The notes under the pieces were generated by a model that made no database searches, had not been told where the DNA came from, and saw only the letters and a program-made list of their open reading frames with translations. This document shows, one piece after another, positions 11,844 through 19,627 of a stretch of DNA of 64,000 nt (positions are counted from its first letter, which is position 1; every line of letters starts with the position of its first letter). The translations under genes were made by a program, and so were the position numbers. This DNA comes from Paracoccaceae bacterium (GTDB taxonomy: Bacteria > Pseudomonadota > Alphaproteobacteria > Rhodobacterales > Rhodobacteraceae), in the NCBI GenBank assembly GCA_016936395.1, contig JAFGXY010000009.1:1-64000 (forward strand), written 5' to 3'.

Positions 11844-11972
11844 GCCGGCACCTTTCGCAAGTGGCTGGTTCTGTTCTAGCAGGTTGTCCGCCAAGGGAAA
11901 GTGATTGCCAGCCAAACTCCGCCCCGCTTGTCAGCCCGGTGTCACCCGGCTAGGGTTTTGCCAAGGCGAGAT

Positions 11973-12003
11973 GACGGCCAGATACGACGGCCAGATACGA
12001 CGG
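11973..12003. repeat. 13-base tandem repeat before MORN gene
   Basis: The unit GACGGCCAGATAC occurs twice in direct succession (11973-11985, 11986-11998) and is followed by the first five bases of a third copy. It lies 12 bases upstream of the MORN gene start and could vary in copy number by slippage, which would shift spacing in the leader. Confidence 0.75.
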
Positions 12004-12014
12004 AGAGTCCGACC

Positions 12015-13457
12015 ATGCGGCAAGCTGTGAAACGTCTGATGGCTGCGGCCCTGCTTGGCCTGGCGCTGCCGGGTCTTGCCCTTGCGCAAGACGGCGAGAT
12101 CGTCACCAAGCAGTATGACGACGGATCGTTCTATGAAGGCACCTTCCTGAATGGGCGTCAGCATGGCACCGGCACCTATACCCTGCCCAACGGCTACAGC
12201 TACACCGGCGACTGGGTGGCGGGCGAGATCACCGGCATGGGCGTTGCGCGCTACCCCAACGGGTCAGTCTACGAGGGTCAGTTCGCGGCAGGCAAGCCGG
12301 AAGGCCGCGGCAAGATCACCTATGCCGATGGTGGCAGCTATGACGGCGACTGGACAAACGGCCAGATGACCGGCGAAGGTGTCGCGCGCTATGCCGATGG
12401 CTCGGTCTATACCGGCGCGTTCCTGAACGGCAAACACCATGGCATCGGCGTGCAGGACGGCCCCGATGGCTATCGCTACGAAGGCGGCTGGACCGAAGGG
12501 GTGAAAGACGGCAAGGGCCGCGTCACCTATGCCGATGGCACCGTGTTCGACGGCACGCTGAAGGCCGGGCAGCGCGAGGGAGAGGGCAGCCTGACCATGC
12601 CCGACGGCCTGGTCTATGTGGGCCAATGGGCCGGCGGCCAGATCAATGGCTCCGGCAAACTGACCCAGGCCAATGGCGACGTCTATGAGGGAAGCTTCGT
12701 CGATGGCCAGCGACAGGGCGAAGGACGCGCCACCTCGGCCAATGGCGATGTCTATGAAGGCGGCTTTCAGGCCAACAAGCGCGCGGGCAAGGGCGTGTTC
12801 CGCGCCAAGGACGGCACCGTGCTGGAGGGCGACTGGCTGGACGGCCGCCTGACAGGCGTGGGCCGCATCACCTTTCCCGATGGCGCGATCTACGAAGGCG
12901 CGGTCAAGAATGACGAGGCAGATGGCACCGGCAAGATCACCTATGCCGATGGGGCGATCTATGATGGCACCTGGGTGGCGGGCATCATCGACGGCACCGG
13001 CACCGCCACCTACGCCACCGGCGCGGTCTACACCGGCGGCTTCAAGGCTGCCAAACCGCATGGCAGCGGCACCATGACCCTGCCCGATGGCTATCGCTAT
13101 GAAGGCACATGGGAAAACGGCCAACGCGCCGGCAAGGGAACGGCCACCTATGCCGATGGCACGGTCTATACCGGCGATTTCGTGGCGGGCCTGCGGTCCG
13201 GCAAGGGCGAACTTACCGGCCCGGACGGCTTTGTCTACACCGGCGACTGGAAAGACGGCGAGATCGATGGTCTGGGCAGTGCCACCTATCCCAACGGCGA
13301 CCGCTATGACGGCAGCTTTGCCAAAGGCCGCCGGTCAGGTCAGGGAAAACTGACCTATGCCAGCGGGCAAGTGGCAGAAGGCCTGTGGGAAAACGGCATC
13401 CTGATGGCCCCCAGTCCGGCGCCCACCGATCCGGCCGCCCCGACGCCCTCGCCCTGA
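12015..13457 (+). CDS. Secreted MORN-repeat protein, 19 units
   Basis: A signal peptide (residues 1-24, LALPGLALAQ before the cut) is followed by 19 consecutive MORN units of 23 residues, core pattern DG-x-x-Y-x-G-x-W or F, from about residue 35 to 460, then a Pro/Ala-rich tail. The protein is 480 residues and should be periplasmic or exported. MORN units form beta-hairpin scaffolds; in bacteria their roles are mostly unknown. The units are 69 bases each and similar enough to allow recombination. ATG 12015 is chosen because the signal peptide begins there. It stands alone, divergent from nadE. Confidence 0.86.
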   Translation: MRQAVKRLMAAALLGLALPGLALAQDGEIVTKQYDDGSFYEGTFLNGRQHGTGTYTLPNGYSYTGDWVAGEITGMGVARYPNGSVYEGQFAAGKPEGRGKITYADGGSYDGDWTNGQMTGEGVARYADGSVYTGAFLNGKHHGIGVQDGPDGYRYEGGWTEGVKDGKGRVTYADGTVFDGTLKAGQREGEGSLTMPDGLVYVGQWAGGQINGSGKLTQANGDVYEGSFVDGQRQGEGRATSANGDVYEGGFQANKRAGKGVFRAKDGTVLEGDWLDGRLTGVGRITFPDGAIYEGAVKNDEADGTGKITYADGAIYDGTWVAGIIDGTGTATYATGAVYTGGFKAAKPHGSGTMTLPDGYRYEGTWENGQRAGKGTATYADGTVYTGDFVAGLRSGKGELTGPDGFVYTGDWKDGEIDGLGSATYPNGDRYDGSFAKGRRSGQGKLTYASGQVAEGLWENGILMAPSPAPTDPAAPTPSP

Positions 13458-13752: not shown

Positions 13753-15282
13753 TCACACCGGGGTGCCCGCGTCAAGTTTGGCCAGAAAGGCTTCGGCTTC
13801 TGCCAGCGTGGCGGCCTGCCGGGACGGGGCCATCTTGTCCCATGTCCGGTACATCTGCGCCATGCGTGGGTTGGCCTGAAACCGTGTGCGATGGCGCAGC
13901 AGGAAATCCCAGTAAAGCAGGTTGAACGGGCAGGCATTGGGTCCGGTCTTGTCGGCCACGCGGTAGTGGCATCCGCCGCAATAGTCGGACATCCGGTCGA
14001 TATAGGCCCCGGAGGCAGCGTAGGGTTTCGACCCCAGCACGCCGCCATCGGCAAACTGGCTCATCCCGATCGCGTTGGGGGCCTCGACCCATTCGAAAGC
14101 ATCAATGTAAACAGACAGATACCATTCATGCAGCGCGTGCGGATTGACACCTGCCAGCAGGGCAAAGTTACCAGTCACCATCAGCCGCTGGATGTGGTGG
14201 GCATAGGCCATATCGCGGGTTTGCCCCACCGCATGCGACAGGCAGGCCATTTGCGTCTTGGCCCCCCAATAGAGCGGCGGCAGCGCTCGGCTGGCCCCCA
14301 GCGCGTTCTGGTCGGCATAGCCGGGGCCGTGCAACATGTAGATGCCGCGCACGAACTCGCGCCAACCGATGATCTGGCGGATGAAGCCCTCGACCGCATT
14401 GAGCGGCGCTTTGCCCGCGTGCCAGGCGGCCTCGACCGCTTGGCACACCTCAAGCGGGTTTAGCAGGCCGATGTTGAGGTAGGGCGAGATCAGCGCGTGG
14501 CTGAGGGTCGGGTCAGCGGCCAGCATCGCGTCTTGTTCATCCCCAAAGCTGGGCAACGCGTGGTCGATGAAATGCGTCAGCGCCGCCTGCGCGTCCTCGC
14601 GGGTGACAGCCCAGCCAAAGGGCCGCAAGCACCCGAAATGGTTGGGAAATCGCGCTTCGACCAATGTCAGCACCTGCTGCGTCACGGCATCGGGGGTGAA
14701 CTGCGGCGGGCGGGGGCGGAACAGGTCGGGTTTGGCGCGCTTGCGGTTGTCGTGGTCAAAGTTCCACTCGCCGCCGATAGGGTCTTTGCCTTGCATCAGC
14801 AGGCCGGTCTTGCGGCGCATGTCGCGGTAGAACCATTCCATCCGCAACTGTTTGCGGCCCTCGGCCCAGGCGGCAAATTCGGCGTCCGAGCAGATGAAGC
14901 GGTCATCGGGCAGTTGGGTGACGGGCAGCGGCAAATCGTCCAGCGCGGTGATCAGCCGCCATTCGCCGGGGCGGGTGGCAAGGATTTCGGTCGCCCCGTA
15001 TTCCGCGGCGCGGCGCAGCAGTTCGCCTTGAATCGATTGGGTATTTTCGGGGTCATCCAGCTTTGAATAGGCAACCTGCCAGCCGTTTTTGCGCAGATCT
15101 GCTGCAAAGTGACGCATGGCTGACAGGATCAGGGCAATCTTTTGCGGGTGATGCGGGACATAGGTTCCCTCGGCCTGAACCTCGGCCATCACCACCAAGT
15201 CTTGAGCGGGATCAGCGGCCCGAAGACACGATATATTGGGGGTCAACTGATCACCCAACACAAGGATCAGGCGTTTCACCAT
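13753..15282 (-). CDS. cryB: FeS photolyase/cryptochrome, CryB/PhrB family
   Basis: A 509-residue FAD protein of the FeS-BCP branch, which includes Rhodobacter sphaeroides CryB and Agrobacterium PhrB; PhrB repairs (6-4) photoproducts with blue light. The N-terminal Rossmann-like domain starts RLILVLGDQL. The FeS ligands are visible: CGGC near residue 440, a Cys in NACPF about 13 residues later, and a Cys in the MACLSHAVGQ segment near 350. The start overlaps the SDR stop by seven bases, so the two are co-expressed. CryB also affects photosynthesis gene expression in Rhodobacter; whether this one repairs DNA, signals or does both cannot be read from sequence. Confidence 0.92.
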   Translation of the reverse strand: MVKRLILVLGDQLTPNISCLRAADPAQDLVVMAEVQAEGTYVPHHPQKIALILSAMRHFAADLRKNGWQVAYSKLDDPENTQSIQGELLRRAAEYGATEILATRPGEWRLITALDDLPLPVTQLPDDRFICSDAEFAAWAEGRKQLRMEWFYRDMRRKTGLLMQGKDPIGGEWNFDHDNRKRAKPDLFRPRPPQFTPDAVTQQVLTLVEARFPNHFGCLRPFGWAVTREDAQAALTHFIDHALPSFGDEQDAMLAADPTLSHALISPYLNIGLLNPLEVCQAVEAAWHAGKAPLNAVEGFIRQIIGWREFVRGIYMLHGPGYADQNALGASRALPPLYWGAKTQMACLSHAVGQTRDMAYAHHIQRLMVTGNFALLAGVNPHALHEWYLSVYIDAFEWVEAPNAIGMSQFADGGVLGSKPYAASGAYIDRMSDYCGGCHYRVADKTGPNACPFNLLYWDFLLRHRTRFQANPRMAQMYRTWDKMAPSRQAATLAEAEAFLAKLDAGTPV

Positions 15283-15938
15283 GGGATGGTCTTGCCGTTC
15301 TGGTCAAAGAAGCCGCCGCTGTCAGCCGGGGTCAGCGCTGCCAGCACGCGCAGCAGGTTTTCTGCCGCCTGATCTGGCGTGACGGTGGGGTGCGAGCCGG
15401 CGTATTTCGCGGTCAGTGGCGTAGATACTGTGCCGGGGTGCAGGCAGACCACAACCGCTTGGGGGTGGCTGCGGGAAATTTCCACCGCTGCGGTGTGGAT
15501 CAACTGGTTCAGCGCGGCCTTGGCGGCACGATAGCTGTGCCAGCCGCCAAGCCGATTGTCCCCGATGCTGCCCACCCGCGCCGATAGCACGGCAAACCGC
15601 GCCGGGCGGTCCTTGGGCATCAGGCGCACGCTGTGTTTCAAGACCAGTGCCGGGCCAGTGGCGTTCAGCGCAAATTGCGCGGAAAGGCCCGCGAAATCTA
15701 ACATTTTCAATGACTTCTCGGGGGCGACCCCGTTCAGCTCCAGCGCCCCGGTGGTCACAAGGATATGGTCGAACGGGCCGTCCAGCGCGGCCAGATGGTC
15801 CCGGATGCTGACCTCATCGGTGATGTCGAACCCGTTTGTCCGGCGTGACAGGCGCGTCACTTCGGCCCCTTGCGCTGCCAGACGGTCGGCGACCGCGCGC
15901 CCGATCCCCCCCGATGCCCCGATCACCAATGCCCGCAT
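15276..15938 (-). CDS. Short-chain dehydrogenase, CsgA-like
   Basis: A 220-residue SDR with the nucleotide motif GASGGIG (residues 8-14), the catalytic Ser in VLSARVGS and the YRAAK Tyr/Lys pair near residue 147. The acidic/basic end of the second strand (LSRRTN) suggests NADPH. A strong AGGAAGG lies before ATG 15938. It is the first gene of a two-gene operon with cryB; this pairing suggests a light or oxidative stress setting. The substrate is unknown. Confidence 0.9.
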   Translation of the reverse strand: MRALVIGASGGIGRAVADRLAAQGAEVTRLSRRTNGFDITDEVSIRDHLAALDGPFDHILVTTGALELNGVAPEKSLKMLDFAGLSAQFALNATGPALVLKHSVRLMPKDRPARFAVLSARVGSIGDNRLGGWHSYRAAKAALNQLIHTAAVEISRSHPQAVVVCLHPGTVSTPLTAKYAGSHPTVTPDQAAENLLRVLAALTPADSGGFFDQNGKTIPW

Positions 15939-15963
15939 GATACCCTTCCTGAATGGACCCGTC

Positions 15964-15991
15964 AGATAGCGGGAATGTGGCGTGGGGCAAG
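15964..15991 (-). promoter_or_regulatory. Candidate sigma-32-type promoter for SDR-cryB
   Basis: Reading the minus strand, CTTGCCC is followed after exactly 13 bases by CGCTATCT, and the SDR start codon lies about 26 bases further on. The heat-shock sigma consensus is CTTGAAA-N13-CCCCATNT, so the spacing and the CTTG core fit and the -10 fits partly. RpoHII, encoded in this window, controls cryB in Rhodobacter sphaeroides as I recall it. This is an inference from a short match. Confidence 0.42.
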
Positions 15992-16012
15992 CGTGGTCTG
16001 GCTGTGGGGAAC

Positions 16013-16034
16013 GCGTGGTGCATCCGTGACCACG
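16013..16034. repeat. Dispersed 22-base palindrome, copy A
   Basis: Core GTGGTGCATCCGTGACCAC, a 6-base-pair inverted repeat (CGTGGT / ACCACG) with a 9-base centre. The same 22 bases occur inverted at 42586-42607, again in an upstream region. Possibly a protein site or a small hairpin. Confidence 0.6.
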
Positions 16035-16067
16035 GCCACGTCCTGCCGGGACAGCCCCCCCACCCCA

Positions 16068-16165
16068 CCCTCCCCCACGAGGGGGGAGGGAGGCGAGCCT
16101 GTCTGATGCGAAGGGGGCAAGCGGTCAGGTCGGGCACCTCCCCTCCCCCCTCGGGTGGGGAGGGG
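16068..16165. repeat. Two GC hairpins in SDR-leuA gap
   Basis: CCCTCCCCC pairs with GGGGGAGGG (16068-16090) and CCCCTCCCC (16140-16148) with GGGGAGGGG (16157-16165). The arms of the two hairpins are similar, so the region can also fold as one long structure. Such C/G-tract pairs are common intergenic repeats in high-GC alphaproteobacteria. No gene is seen from 15939 to 16233. Confidence 0.6.
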
Positions 16166-16233
16166 ATGGGCGTGGGGGTCGCGCGTCGCAAATCGCCCTT
16201 TACATTCCGGGCAGCGGCGATATCGTCGCGGGC

Positions 16234-16320
16234 ATGAAACGGGGTCCACATATCGCATGTTCGACCGGGGATATTGCCCTGCCGGCCACCCGTGGTCTGC
16301 TTGTCCTTAGCTGCCTCTGA
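16234..16320 (+). CDS. leuL: Leucine leader peptide for leuA attenuation
   Basis: A 28-codon frame starts at ATG 16234 and ends at TGA 16318-16320, 74 bases before leuA. Its last eight codons read Gly-Leu-Leu-Val-Leu-Ser-Cys-Leu, a cluster of the amino acid that LeuA makes. The stop codon lies inside the first arm of a 10-base-pair hairpin. This is the arrangement of attenuation leaders known for amino acid operons in proteobacteria: ribosome stalling at Leu codons when leucyl-tRNA is scarce would change the RNA fold. The ribosome binding site is weak. Function is inferred from position, codons and structure. Confidence 0.68.
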   Translation: MKRGPHIACSTGDIALPATRGLLVLSCL

Positions 16321-16360
16321 GCGTGCCCTTGGGCGCGACCGCTCAGAGGTGACAGCGCCC
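16314..16360 (+). promoter_or_regulatory. leuA attenuator with two exclusive hairpins
   Basis: Arm CCTCTGAGCG (16314-16323) pairs perfectly with CGCTCAGAGG (16340-16349). A second pair, GGGCGC (16331-16336) with GCGCCC (16355-16360), interleaves with the first, so the two stems cannot form together as nested hairpins. The first arm contains the leader peptide stop codon. No T run follows, so control may act on Rho-dependent termination or translation rather than on an intrinsic terminator. Confidence 0.62.
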
Positions 16361-16394
16361 GGCAACGAGAAGCAAAGCATCAAGGATCAGACCC

Positions 16395-17966
16395 ATGACA
16401 TCTGCAACGCAAGACCGCGTTTTCATTTTCGACACCACCTTGCGCGATGGCGAGCAAAGCCCCGGCGCCACCATGACCCATGAAGAAAAGCTGGAGATTG
16501 CCAGCCTGCTGGACGAGATGGGCGTCGATATCATTGAAGCCGGGTTCCCGATTGCCAGCGAAGGCGACTTTGCCGCCGTGTCGGAGATTTCAAAGCGGGC
16601 GAAGAACAGCACGATCTGCGGGTTGGCACGGGCGAATTTCAAGGACATCGACCGCTGCTGGGAGGCGGTGAAACATGCGCGCAGCCCGCGCATCCACACC
16701 TTCATCGGCACCTCGCCGCTGCACCGCGCCATTCCCAATCTGGACATGGACCAGATGGCCGAGCGCATCCACGACACCGTGACCCATGCCCGCAACCTGT
16801 GCGACAACGTGCAATGGTCGCCGATGGATGCCACGCGGACCGAGCATGATTATCTGTGCCGGGTGGTGGAAATCGCGATCAAGGCCGGGGCGACCACGAT
16901 CAACATTCCCGACACCGTCGGCTATACCGCGCCACGCGAAAGCTCTGACCTGATCGCCATGCTGCTGGAGCGGGTGCCGGGCGCCGATACCATCATCTTT
17001 GCCACCCATTGCCACAATGATCTGGGCATGGCGACGGCCAATGCGCTTGCGGCGGTCGAGGCGGGGGCGCGGCAGATCGAATGCACCATCAACGGCTTGG
17101 GCGAACGGGCCGGCAACACCGCGCTGGAAGAGGTGGTGATGGCAATGAAGGTCCGCAATGACATCATGCCATATCGCACCGGGATTGACACCACCAAGAT
17201 CATGAACCTGTCGCGCCGGGTGGCCAGCGTGTCAGGCTTTCCGGTGCAGTTCAACAAGGCGATTGTCGGCAAGAACGCCTTCTTGCATGAGTCCGGCATC
17301 CATCAGGACGGGGTGCTGAAGAATGTCGAGACCTTCGAGATCATGCGGCCCGAGGATATTGGCCTCGTGCAGAAGAACATCGCCATGGGCAAGCATTCGG
17401 GGCGGGCGGCGTTGCGGGCCAAGCTGCGCGAGCTGGGCGTCGAACTGGCGGACAACCAGCTGAACGATGTGTTCGTGCGGTTCAAGGCTTTGGCCGACCG
17501 CAAGAAAGAGGTTTATGACGATGATCTGGTGGCCCTGGTCGCCGATGAACAGACCAACGATGCGCATGAGTATTTGCAGTTGAAAAAGCTGCGGGTGATC
17601 TGTGGCACCGAAGGCCCGCAAGAGGCCGACATGGTGCTGTCGATTGACGGGGTGGATCACCACATTGACGCCACGGGCGACGGTCCGGTGGATGCGGCGT
17701 TCAACTGCGTGAAGATGCTGTTCCCGCACAAGGCACGGCTGGAGATCTATCAGGTGCATGCCGTGACCCAAGGCACCGATGCGCAGGCCACGGTGTCGGT
17801 GCGGTTGCAAGAGGATGGGCGGATCGTCACCGGGGCCTCGGCCGATACCGATACCATCGTGGCCAGCACCCGCGCCTATATCAACGCGCTGAACAAGCTG
17901 ATCGTGCGGCGGCAGAAAACCGCGCCGGGCAATGACGTGAAGACGGTCAGCTATCACGGGGAGTGA
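16395..17966 (+). CDS. leuA: 2-isopropylmalate synthase
   Basis: Condenses acetyl-CoA with 2-ketoisovalerate, the first committed step of leucine synthesis. The 523 residues include the HMGL-like catalytic barrel (DTTLRDGEQSPG near residue 12, the metal motif THCHNDLGMA near 204) and the C-terminal LeuA allosteric domain that binds leucine. ATG 16395 is preceded by AAGGA. The leader peptide and hairpins upstream suggest attenuation by leucyl-tRNA supply on top of feedback inhibition. Position near mreB matches other Rhodobacteraceae. Confidence 0.97.
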   Translation: MTSATQDRVFIFDTTLRDGEQSPGATMTHEEKLEIASLLDEMGVDIIEAGFPIASEGDFAAVSEISKRAKNSTICGLARANFKDIDRCWEAVKHARSPRIHTFIGTSPLHRAIPNLDMDQMAERIHDTVTHARNLCDNVQWSPMDATRTEHDYLCRVVEIAIKAGATTINIPDTVGYTAPRESSDLIAMLLERVPGADTIIFATHCHNDLGMATANALAAVEAGARQIECTINGLGERAGNTALEEVVMAMKVRNDIMPYRTGIDTTKIMNLSRRVASVSGFPVQFNKAIVGKNAFLHESGIHQDGVLKNVETFEIMRPEDIGLVQKNIAMGKHSGRAALRAKLRELGVELADNQLNDVFVRFKALADRKKEVYDDDLVALVADEQTNDAHEYLQLKKLRVICGTEGPQEADMVLSIDGVDHHIDATGDGPVDAAFNCVKMLFPHKARLEIYQVHAVTQGTDAQATVSVRLQEDGRIVTGASADTDTIVASTRAYINALNKLIVRRQKTAPGNDVKTVSYHGE

Positions 17967-17976
17967 TGTGGCTTTG

Positions 17977-18071
17977 CCCCGGCGTTCCGCAGGGGATGCC
18001 GGGGATGGGGTGCAAGCGCCCTGATTTTCAGCAGGCGGGACAATTTGCCCGTGCAACCGGCCGTCAAATTG
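17977..18071. promoter_or_regulatory. Hairpin after leuA and inverted repeat before DASS gene
   Basis: CCCCGGC (17977-17983) pairs with GCCGGGG (17998-18004) just past leuA; no T run follows. Further on, CAATTTG (18041-18047) and CAAATTG (18065-18071) form a perfect 7-base inverted repeat, extended by GCAGGC / CCTGC with a small bulge. The second could be an operator for the transporter downstream. Confidence 0.42.
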
Positions 18072-18142
18072 CCTGCCCGTCGTTGCAATGACGTGAAATC
18101 GGCGTAGAGGTCTGGGGCCGTTTTCAGCCGGATCGTGCCGCC

Positions 18143-19627
18143 ATGCCAGAGCCCCAGACGCCTCGCCTGCCCGAAGACGGCCAAATCCGCGCCCGGATCG
18201 GCCTTGTGCTGGGCCCGCTGGTCTTTGGCGCGATGCTGCTGGCAGGCCCGCCCGGCGGGGTAACGGATCAGGTCTGGACGGTGGCGGCGCTGACCTTGCT
18301 GATGGCGCTGTGGTGGGTGACCGAGGCGCTGCCGATCCCGGCCACGGCCCTGTTGCCGGTGGCGGTGCTGCCGACATTGGGCACCGCGACGTTCACCGAG
18401 GCGGCCGCGCCTTATGCCAATCCGCTGATCTTTCTGTTTCTGGGCGGCTTCATGCTTGCACTGGCGATTCAGCGCTGGAATCTGCACCAGCGGATTGCCC
18501 TGTTCATCCTGGGCTTTGTCGGGCAGCGGCCCGATCATCTGGTGGCCGGGTTCATGCTGGCGACGGCGGGCCTGAGCATGTGGGTGTCGAACACCGCGAC
18601 CGCCGCGCTGATGCTGCCGATCGGGGTTTCGGTGCTGGCGATGATTGATGCCGGGCCAACACCGCCCGAGCGCGCGCGCAGCATCGGGATCGCGTTGATG
18701 CTGGGCATTGCGTTCGGGGCCAATATCGGCGGCATTGCCACGCTGATCGGCACGCCGCCAAATGCCTTGCTGGCGGCCTATCTGGCGGAAAGCTGGCAGA
18801 TCGAGATCGGCTTCATGACATGGATGGCCTTTGCACTGCCGCTGTCCTTGGCGTTGCTGGTGGCCTGCTGGTGGGTGCTGTGCCGCTGGGCCTTTGTGGT
18901 GACGCCCGAGCCGGTGGCCGGGATAGCCGAGTTGCTGGCAGAGCGCCGCGCGGCGCTGGGGCCGATGGGGGGGGCCGAGCGGCGGGTGGCCATGGTGTTT
19001 GCGGCGGTGGCGGCGGCATGGGTGCTGCGCCCGCTGCTGGATGCGGCCTTGCCGGGGCTGACCCTGAGCGATGCGGCGATTTCGGTGATCGCGGCGGTGG
19101 TGCTGTTTGCGTGGCCTGCGGGTGGCGGCAACCGTCGCGCGCTGCTGACATGGACTGACACCGCGCAACTGCCCTGGGGGGTGCTGATCCTTGTCGGTGG
19201 GGGTCTCAGCCTTGGCGAGGCGATCGGGTCCAGCGGGTTGGCGGACAGTCTGGCGGTGGCGATGCGCGGGTTGACCGATTGGCCGGGCTGGCTGCTGGTC
19301 GGGCTGGTCTCGGCGGGGGCCATGGGCCTTAGCCATGTCACCTCGAACACCGCGACCGCCGCCACCCTGATCCCGCTGGCAGGGGCCATGGCGATCAGCC
19401 TTGGGGTGTCGCCCTTGCTGCTGACACTGCCGGTCACGCTGGCGGCGTCTTGCGCCTTCATGCTGCCGGTGGCGACGCCGCCCAATGCGATTGTGTTCGG
19501 CAGCGGCCGGATCGGCGTGCCCGACATGGTGCGGGCGGGTTTGTGGATGAGCCTGATCTCGATGGTGCTGATCGGGGCCTGCGTGATGGCGCTGGATTGG
19601 ACCGGGCTGTTGCCTGTGGCGGGGTAA
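18143..19627 (+). CDS. DASS/SLC13-family anion symporter
   Basis: A 494-residue membrane protein with about 12 hydrophobic segments. Both halves carry the Ser-Asn-Thr motif of the divalent anion:sodium symporters (SMWVSNTATAALMLPIG region near residue 152 and LSHVTSNTATAATLIPL near 394). The family imports dicarboxylates such as succinate, or citrate or sulfate, with sodium. The substrate cannot be read here. It stands between leuA and mreB and is not obviously functionally tied to either. Confidence 0.9.
   Translation: MPEPQTPRLPEDGQIRARIGLVLGPLVFGAMLLAGPPGGVTDQVWTVAALTLLMALWWVTEALPIPATALLPVAVLPTLGTATFTEAAAPYANPLIFLFLGGFMLALAIQRWNLHQRIALFILGFVGQRPDHLVAGFMLATAGLSMWVSNTATAALMLPIGVSVLAMIDAGPTPPERARSIGIALMLGIAFGANIGGIATLIGTPPNALLAAYLAESWQIEIGFMTWMAFALPLSLALLVACWWVLCRWAFVVTPEPVAGIAELLAERRAALGPMGGAERRVAMVFAAVAAAWVLRPLLDAALPGLTLSDAAISVIAAVVLFAWPAGGGNRRALLTWTDTAQLPWGVLILVGGGLSLGEAIGSSGLADSLAVAMRGLTDWPGWLLVGLVSAGAMGLSHVTSNTATAATLIPLAGAMAISLGVSPLLLTLPVTLAASCAFMLPVATPPNAIVFGSGRIGVPDMVRAGLWMSLISMVLIGACVMALDWTGLLPVAG

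Follow-up and report, generated by a model that had tools for sequence, protein, structure and literature searches.

A probable leucine-responsive translational attenuator in the leuA leader of Rhodobacteraceae

The leuA locus and its leader reading frame

The DNA analysed here (64,000 nt of contig JAFGXY010000009.1, Paracoccaceae bacterium; hereafter, the window) carries a leuA gene, the product of which matched the equivalog model NF002087 with 850 bits at a cut-off of 729. Genes for a photolyase-related protein (13753–15282, − strand; PF04244) and a short-chain dehydrogenase (15276–15938, − strand) are both divergent from leuA, a DASS-family sodium-coupled anion symporter is encoded 3′ of it (18143–19627, + strand), and the frame at 11901–13457 (+ strand) encodes a protein built of many short Y/G/W-rich repeats, which we take by eye to be MORN-like. 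The following features were assigned to leuA and its leader:

16199–16226, + strand: promoter-like site TTTACA-16 nt-TATCGT matching the consensus at 9 of 12 positions, with 7 nt between the −10 hexamer and the leader ATG
16234–16320, + strand: leader reading frame MKRGPHIACSTGDIALPATRGLLVLSCL, 28 codons from an ATG start to the TGA at 16318–16320; probably translated as a leaderless frame
16297–16308, + strand: putative regulatory codons CTG CTT GTC CTT (Leu Leu Val Leu), assigned from codon counts in relatives
16382–16386, + strand: leuA Shine-Dalgarno sequence AAGGA, assigned from the sequence and anti-Shine-Dalgarno energies
16395–17966, + strand: leuA, 2-isopropylmalate synthase, 523 aa (NF002087, TIGR00973, PF00682, PF08502)

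An initial annotation of this DNA had described a 28-codon frame with a Leu-rich end ahead of leuA, and the frame was found as described, terminating in Gly-Leu-Leu-Val-Leu-Ser-Cys-Leu before the TGA. For comparison, 80 named Rhodobacterales leuA loci were collected, 79 of which had a usable upstream region (L019 was left out, as its start motif had no match and its LeuA frame breaks off before the motif); together with the window they make up the 80 sequences referred to below. In all 79 usable relatives as well as in the window, the leader has terminal Leu codons, after which come stop-GCG and the same stem-loop. Most relatives have four Leu codons, mainly CTT or CTC, and Val24 (GTC) of the window is replaced by the Leu codon CTC in both genomes of the same genus. 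The commonest leader end is LLLLS-R/C-L, LLLLTLR and LLLLIRL occurring as well, while the fourth codon before the stop (codon −4) encodes Leu in each of the 80 sequences, the window being one of them (CTT 67, CTA 11, CTC 2).

With the gap to the leader ATG chosen as the best between 3 and 12 nt, the best −10 match ended 6–8 nt upstream of this ATG in 71 of the 80 sequences. The leader ATG is not preceded by a good Shine-Dalgarno sequence: median anti-Shine-Dalgarno energies over the 80 sequences, calculated with an assumed 16S rRNA tail, were −1.6 kcal/mol for the leader and −5.6 kcal/mol for leuA. The spacing between the −10 hexamer and the ATG in Rhodobacteraceae is that of leaderless mRNAs, and to judge from the sequence the leader looks leaderless. 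Outside the family this spacing was found in 0 of 43 loci (see below), in a scan that must be regarded as weak, since both control frames also gave zero.

Alignment of the 80 leaders at their ATG revealed, in addition, a conserved N-terminus (16234–16257 in the window) of the form Met-Thr-Arg/Lys...His-Ile; the bases near CATATC (+16 to +21) are likewise conserved. This region lies far from the Leu codons and is perhaps related to leaderless initiation or to an operator element. Two GC-rich near-palindromes (CCTCCCCC..GGGGGAGG) occupy 16069–16089 and 16142–16163, between the divergent short-chain dehydrogenase gene and the leuA promoter; four matches (two sites, both strands) were counted at 0.31 expected. 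The weak Rfam microRNA matches at these near-palindromes (16069–16163) are surely due to chance.

Stems around the leader stop codon and their distribution

The stop codon of the leader had been noticed in a perfect 10-bp stem, with which a second stem interleaves, and both stems (A and B, respectively) are indeed present and perfectly paired in the window:

16314–16323, + strand: 5′ arm of stem A, CCTCTGAGCG, holding the leader stop codon; supported by perfect pairing and covariation
16340–16349, + strand: 3′ arm of stem A, CGCTCAGAGG, forming 10 perfect pairs with 16314–16323
16325–16334, + strand: inner hairpin, GCC-CUUG-GGC, located within the stem A loop (16325–16327 with 16332–16334) and competing with stem B
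16331–16336, + strand: 5′ arm of stem B, GGGCGC, in the loop of stem A
16355–16360, + strand: 3′ arm of stem B, GCGCCC, perfectly complementary to 16331–16336

In the window, stem A has a calculated energy of −16.9 kcal/mol alone and −20.6 kcal/mol with the inner hairpin, and stem B one of −11.0 kcal/mol. The whole-leader fold of the window was no more stable than that of shuffled sequences (z −0.32), so that one sequence could not prove the element; the relatives do. In an alignment of 74 of the 80 sequences (A1; six with long spacers were left out), 97.4% of the stem A cells were paired and three pairs had changed on both sides, and the core TGAGCG...CGCTC is near-invariant across Rhodobacteraceae. 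Stem B was paired in 85.8% of cells, four of its pairs (13 cells) showed changes on both sides, and its covariation score was reached by 0 of 500 shuffles. When the columns of stem B were slid by +3, five pairs and 17 cells appeared changed on both sides, as against the true four and 13, but only 31.5% of cells could pair. With the 3′ arm left free, a stem B helix of 5–11 pairs was found in 80 of 80 sequences (e.g., GGGTGC/GCACCC), although in one of them (L030) the best-scoring helix lay elsewhere. The hairpin in the loop of stem A had a mean z of −2.55 over the 80 sequences. Thus the check proposed with the initial annotation, conservation of the Leu codons and of both stems in the leuA leaders of related Rhodobacteraceae, came out positively, with compensatory changes in both stems.

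The suggestion that A and B exclude each other and so form the switch was not supported. Their arms share no nucleotide, and what stem B conflicts with is the inner hairpin (16325–16327/16332–16334). Since no bases are shared, A and B may form an H-type pseudoknot rather than exclude each other, and the spacers are compatible with such a fold: stem B is separated by 1–3 nt from the 3′ arm of A, and its own 3′ arm is preceded by a spacer of 9–15 nt (each in 79 of 80 sequences). In Rhodobacteraceae the loop of stem A also pairs downstream, probably within a pseudoknot or in place of the inner hairpin. A search for stem B in 42 loci of other families, which keep the rest of the element, did not reveal it (mean z +0.34).

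The two matches of the terminator scan both fall within leuA, leaving no candidate for an intrinsic terminator in the stretch from the leader stop to the leuA ATG. The lack of a T run, pointed out from the window, extends to the relatives: the longest run between leader stop and leuA is 1–4 nt in the 80 sequences, and none exceeds 5 nt in 43 loci of other families. An intrinsic terminator was rejected on both grounds, the empty scan and the lack of long T runs in the 80 and 43 loci. The 3′ arm of stem A together with the next bases (16345–16352, AGAGGTGA) forms a strong Shine-Dalgarno-like sequence, which recurs in many Rhodobacteraceae and might be a standby site; in the window no obvious start codon follows close 3′ of it.

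A covariance model (R1) built from 52 of the 80 sequences (alignment A2) matched 390 of 390 Rhodobacteraceae genomes (139 of 139 genera), once per genome, and leuA followed on the same strand at all 30 matches that were made into loci. Outside the family R1 matched in 8 of 285 genomes. The leader itself is distributed more widely: a frame of the form CTN-NNN-NNN-CCY-stop with its stop in a stem preceded leuA in 43 of 60 upstream regions from other alphaproteobacterial families, the shuffled regions giving 0.3 per 60 and at most 1. These 60 loci came from 98 genomes with a LeuA match outside the family, were taken from near the top of the list and are a non-random sample; 17 of them failed the leader rule, a few of which (L152, L155) look similar by eye. 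The loop of stem A varies from 18 to 51 nt in the other families. In an alignment of 41 of the 43 loci with the window and six further Rhodobacteraceae (A3, 48 rows), 7 of the 10 stem A pairs had changed on both sides (0 of 500 shuffles), and the pair formed by the second base of the stop codon was G-C in 37 rows, A-U in 6 and G-U in 5. The Leu run of the leader often reads Leu-Arg-Leu outside Rhodobacteraceae; the fifth codon before the stop is Arg CGA in 28 of these 43 leaders (L131–L190), usually between two Leu codons.

A class-wide model (R2) matched a single time in 75 of the 241 alphaproteobacterial genomes searched, many of them from its training set. For 57 matches the position relative to a listed leuA could be determined, and each lay upstream of the gene on the same strand; 16 of these genomes were outside the training set. 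In a search of the phylum, R2 matched 53 of 249 genomes, all in the class or family of the window, the number of genomes drawn from other classes not being given. In one Rhodobacteraceae genome (G006) R2 had no match where R1 finds one.

Complementarity between the Leu codons and the ribosome-binding site of leuA

The Leu codons of the leader are complementary to the region from which leuA translation is initiated, and this duplex (P1), absent from the initial annotation, is probably the working part of the element, as far as can be judged from sequence comparison:

16294–16312, + strand: 5′ arm of P1, the Gly-Leu-Leu-Val-Leu-Ser codons, forming a duplex with 16376–16393
16376–16393, + strand: 3′ arm of P1, covering the leuA Shine-Dalgarno sequence AAGGA and ending 1 nt upstream of the leuA ATG

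Taken by itself, the window offers a modest duplex (−18.3 kcal/mol, z −1.46, with 10 of 100 shuffles as good). In the relatives, the full complement of the hexamer made of codons −4 and −3 occurred within the last 45 nt upstream of leuA in 38 of 80 sequences, at 2.4 expected; in the remaining 42, including the window (5 of 6 bases), it is missing, and many of these pair in another register. The complement is specific to the class of leader. Leaders with CTTAGC were accompanied by GCTAAG or its wobble forms GCTAGG and GCTGAG in 29 of 56 cases and those with CTTACG, mostly from Paracoccus, by CGTAAG in 5 of 7, while the complement of the other class was found in 0 of 7 CTTACG and 0 of 56 CTTAGC leaders. 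The pairing of the Leu codons with the ribosome-binding site had a mean z of −1.61 (se 0.14, n = 80) as compared with −0.52 to +0.08 for eleven control pairings, the lowest of which (−0.41 and −0.52) are themselves 3–4 standard errors below zero. In the swap test, the leader's own partner stood at a mean percentile of 0.25 (n = 43) and 0.27 (n = 80). For the z-score pairing test the leuA start was moved in four loci, the hexamer tests and the duplex and register of the window being based on unmoved starts; all significance values are inflated by the kinship of the sequences. The same pairing recurs in the 42 loci of other families with a sufficiently long spacer (mean z −1.42, se 0.22; controls −0.18 and −0.12), L171 with GACTTAGGTG/CACCTAAGTC being an example.

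Masking of the Leu codons lowered the computed opening energy of the leuA ribosome-binding site by 1.2–1.3 kcal/mol on average over the 80 sequences, with a fall of more than 1 kcal/mol in 33–36 of them and a rise in 10–12; the comparison masks gave −0.3 to −0.4 (upstream controls) and −1.1 (stop codon), and in the 42 loci of other families the Leu mask and the upstream control mask were equal, at −1.95 each. The computed opening and folding energies lend weak support to a switch based on P1.

An insertion in one genus provides a natural experiment. In five of eight genomes of this genus (g2; loci L116, L241, L242, L243 and L245), a gene of 118 aa stands between the leader and leuA; in the one tested (L241) its product is a cupin (PF07883), and the other four look alike. 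In all five, P1 forms with the ribosome-binding site of the inserted gene (−11.8 to −13.8 kcal/mol) rather than with that of leuA (−4.5 to −6.4 kcal/mol): the three with the leader sequence CTAATC have GATTAGGA at the ribosome-binding site of the inserted gene, and the two with CTAGTC have ACTAGGA or GCTAGGA there. In the three genomes without the insert, P1 pairs at leuA (−15.2 to −17.5 kcal/mol). Since the partner of P1 lies at the inserted gene, the element apparently acts on the gene that stands first in the mRNA, and the five genomes offer a ready comparison made by nature.

Translational attenuation, its alternatives and known leaders

Considering these data, we propose that the leuA leader is a leucine-responsive translational attenuator and assign to this reading a probability of about 0.72. 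At the level of sequence it is established that a short frame, apparently at or next to the mRNA 5′ end in Rhodobacteraceae, bears Leu codons closely before a stop codon located inside stem A, and that the region around the Shine-Dalgarno sequence of the transcript's first gene is complementary to these codons. As the two can pair, a ribosome waiting for leucine on the codons would probably free the translation of leuA. At ample leucyl-tRNA, the ribosome would reach the stop codon and leave, stem A would re-form, P1 would close and leuA translation would be low; at scarce leucyl-tRNA, it would wait on the Leu codons and cover the 5′ arm of P1, so that the leuA ribosome-binding site would stay open. 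With typical footprint values, a ribosome with the Leu codon −4 in its A site would extend just to the stop codon and leave most of the stem A core free. The likelier switch is P1 against the stalled ribosome rather than A against B. Untranslated leuA mRNA may also be lost to Rho as a secondary effect. The logic of amino-acid attenuation read from the window at the outset is thus supported, as leucine attenuation without an intrinsic terminator, by the conserved Leu codons, stems and compensatory changes; of the two kinds of control hinted at then, Rho-dependent and translational, the pairing of the Leu codons with the leuA ribosome-binding site now tips the balance towards the latter.

Rho-dependent transcription attenuation, in which the ribosome leaves at the stop codon, Rho loads on the spacer and transcription ends before or in leuA unless a stalled ribosome blocks Rho, appears unlikely to us. 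Such a mechanism agrees with the missing intrinsic terminator and with the many spacers that look A/C-rich by eye, and Rho was proposed for other leaders lacking a terminator in PMC1262725; however, it leaves unexplained the complementarity between the Leu codons and the ribosome-binding site, its change in step with the leader and its place at the inserted gene. We hold it for improbable, too, that a regulatory protein or a ligand binds the A/B core, with P1 as the expression platform and leader translation secondary. The near-invariant TGAGCG...CGCTC core of Rhodobacteraceae would suit a binding site, and a protein was preferred for the actinobacterial LEU element by its authors (PMC1262725). 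But in 43 of 60 loci of other families the frame, its Leu codons and the position of the stop are kept while the loop takes any length from 18 to 51 nt and stem B was not found, and in-frame Leu codons would be out of place in a pure protein-binding site.

It is very unlikely that rare Leu codons are kept merely for codon-rate sensing and that the pairing with the Shine-Dalgarno sequence arises incidentally, from pyrimidine-rich codons that happen to face a purine-rich site. CTT indeed makes up 42% of the Leu codons in the leader as compared with 6% in leuA, and CTT and CTC are pyrimidine-rich; nevertheless, much of the pairing is lost on dinucleotide shuffling of the ribosome-binding region, which preserves the purine content, and the complement also tracks the codon that follows the final Leu codon. 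Classical attenuation of transcription, with A or B as terminator or antiterminator, although a leader peptide with Leu codons followed by a GC-rich hairpin recalls the E. coli leu leader, is hardly credible with T runs of at most 4 nt (80 sequences) or 5 nt (43 loci) after the leader stop or stem A and with stem B not found outside Rhodobacteraceae.

In the leu and trp attenuators of E. coli, a leader peptide rich in codons for the regulated amino acid is followed by hairpins. The leuA leader is alike in its Leu codons and hairpins, and differs in that it lacks an intrinsic terminator and that the sequestered element is the ribosome-binding site. In translational attenuators of the ermC/cat type, the stall codons lie in the stem arm that hides a downstream Shine-Dalgarno sequence, and the signal is an antibiotic. 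The same layout is present here, with putative stall codons within the arm that hides the Shine-Dalgarno sequence of leuA, whereas the signal would be a missing amino acid and a conserved stop-codon stem is added. Among alphaproteobacterial leaders, rnTrpL/trpL of Sinorhizobium meliloti shares the leaderless leader frame and differs in being a Trp transcription attenuator upstream of trpE (PMC10117765). Within the same order, the cysS leader uORFC-8-2 of Rhodobacterales likewise encodes a peptide with codons for the relevant amino acid; it differs in the amino acid (Cys), the gene (cysS) and the intrinsic terminator stem described for it (PMC8632094).

In Rfam 15, region 14000–18500 of the window gave ten matches at E up to 5, all below the gathering threshold and none on the leader, and nine relatives gave 0 matches. 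No report of such an element in Proteobacteria was found among open-access papers, although the study of proteobacterial attenuators by Vitreschak et al. (2004) may overlap with it.

The closest counterpart is the LEU element upstream of actinobacterial leuA, described with a leader frame with Leu codons, a base stem to the Shine-Dalgarno sequence and an inner pseudoknot or alternative hairpin, and no terminator (Seliverstov et al., 2005; PMC1262725). Mutations of the leader codons in Streptomyces coelicolor had, as reported there, no effect, or some effect unlike classical attenuation, and because of this misfit the authors preferred a regulatory protein (PMC1262725). The Leu-run leader frame of the LEU element recurs here upstream of leuA, its base stem between Leu codons and Shine-Dalgarno sequence recurs as P1, and its alternative hairpin on the base stem as stem A with the inner hairpin. 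Its pseudoknot might have a counterpart in Rhodobacteraceae, where two interleaved stems are conserved and their spacers would allow such a fold; stem B was not found in the 42 loci of other families. The LEU element belongs to another phylum. Found on the alphaproteobacterial side are a promoter spacing as in leaderless mRNAs (Rhodobacteraceae) and a stop codon within a covarying stem (class). The LeuA enzyme subfamily of the actinobacterial systems also differs, we presume, from the one here. Compared by plan, and not as a proven member, the alphaproteobacterial element works like the LEU element and is probably a variant of it.

In a wider sense, we find it fairly likely that a terminator-free Leu attenuator belongs to the core equipment of leuA across much of the Alphaproteobacteria, with Leu codons serving as the anti-Shine-Dalgarno sequence, a stop codon in a covarying stem and an action on the first gene of the transcript; with a plan common to the actinobacterial LEU element, by common descent or repeated invention; and with leaderless initiation and a gained pseudoknot in Rhodobacteraceae. 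If this is true, direct translational control by Leu codons, proposed, as far as the searches of open-access papers show, only for Actinobacteria and unexplained there, extends to a class with good laboratory models.
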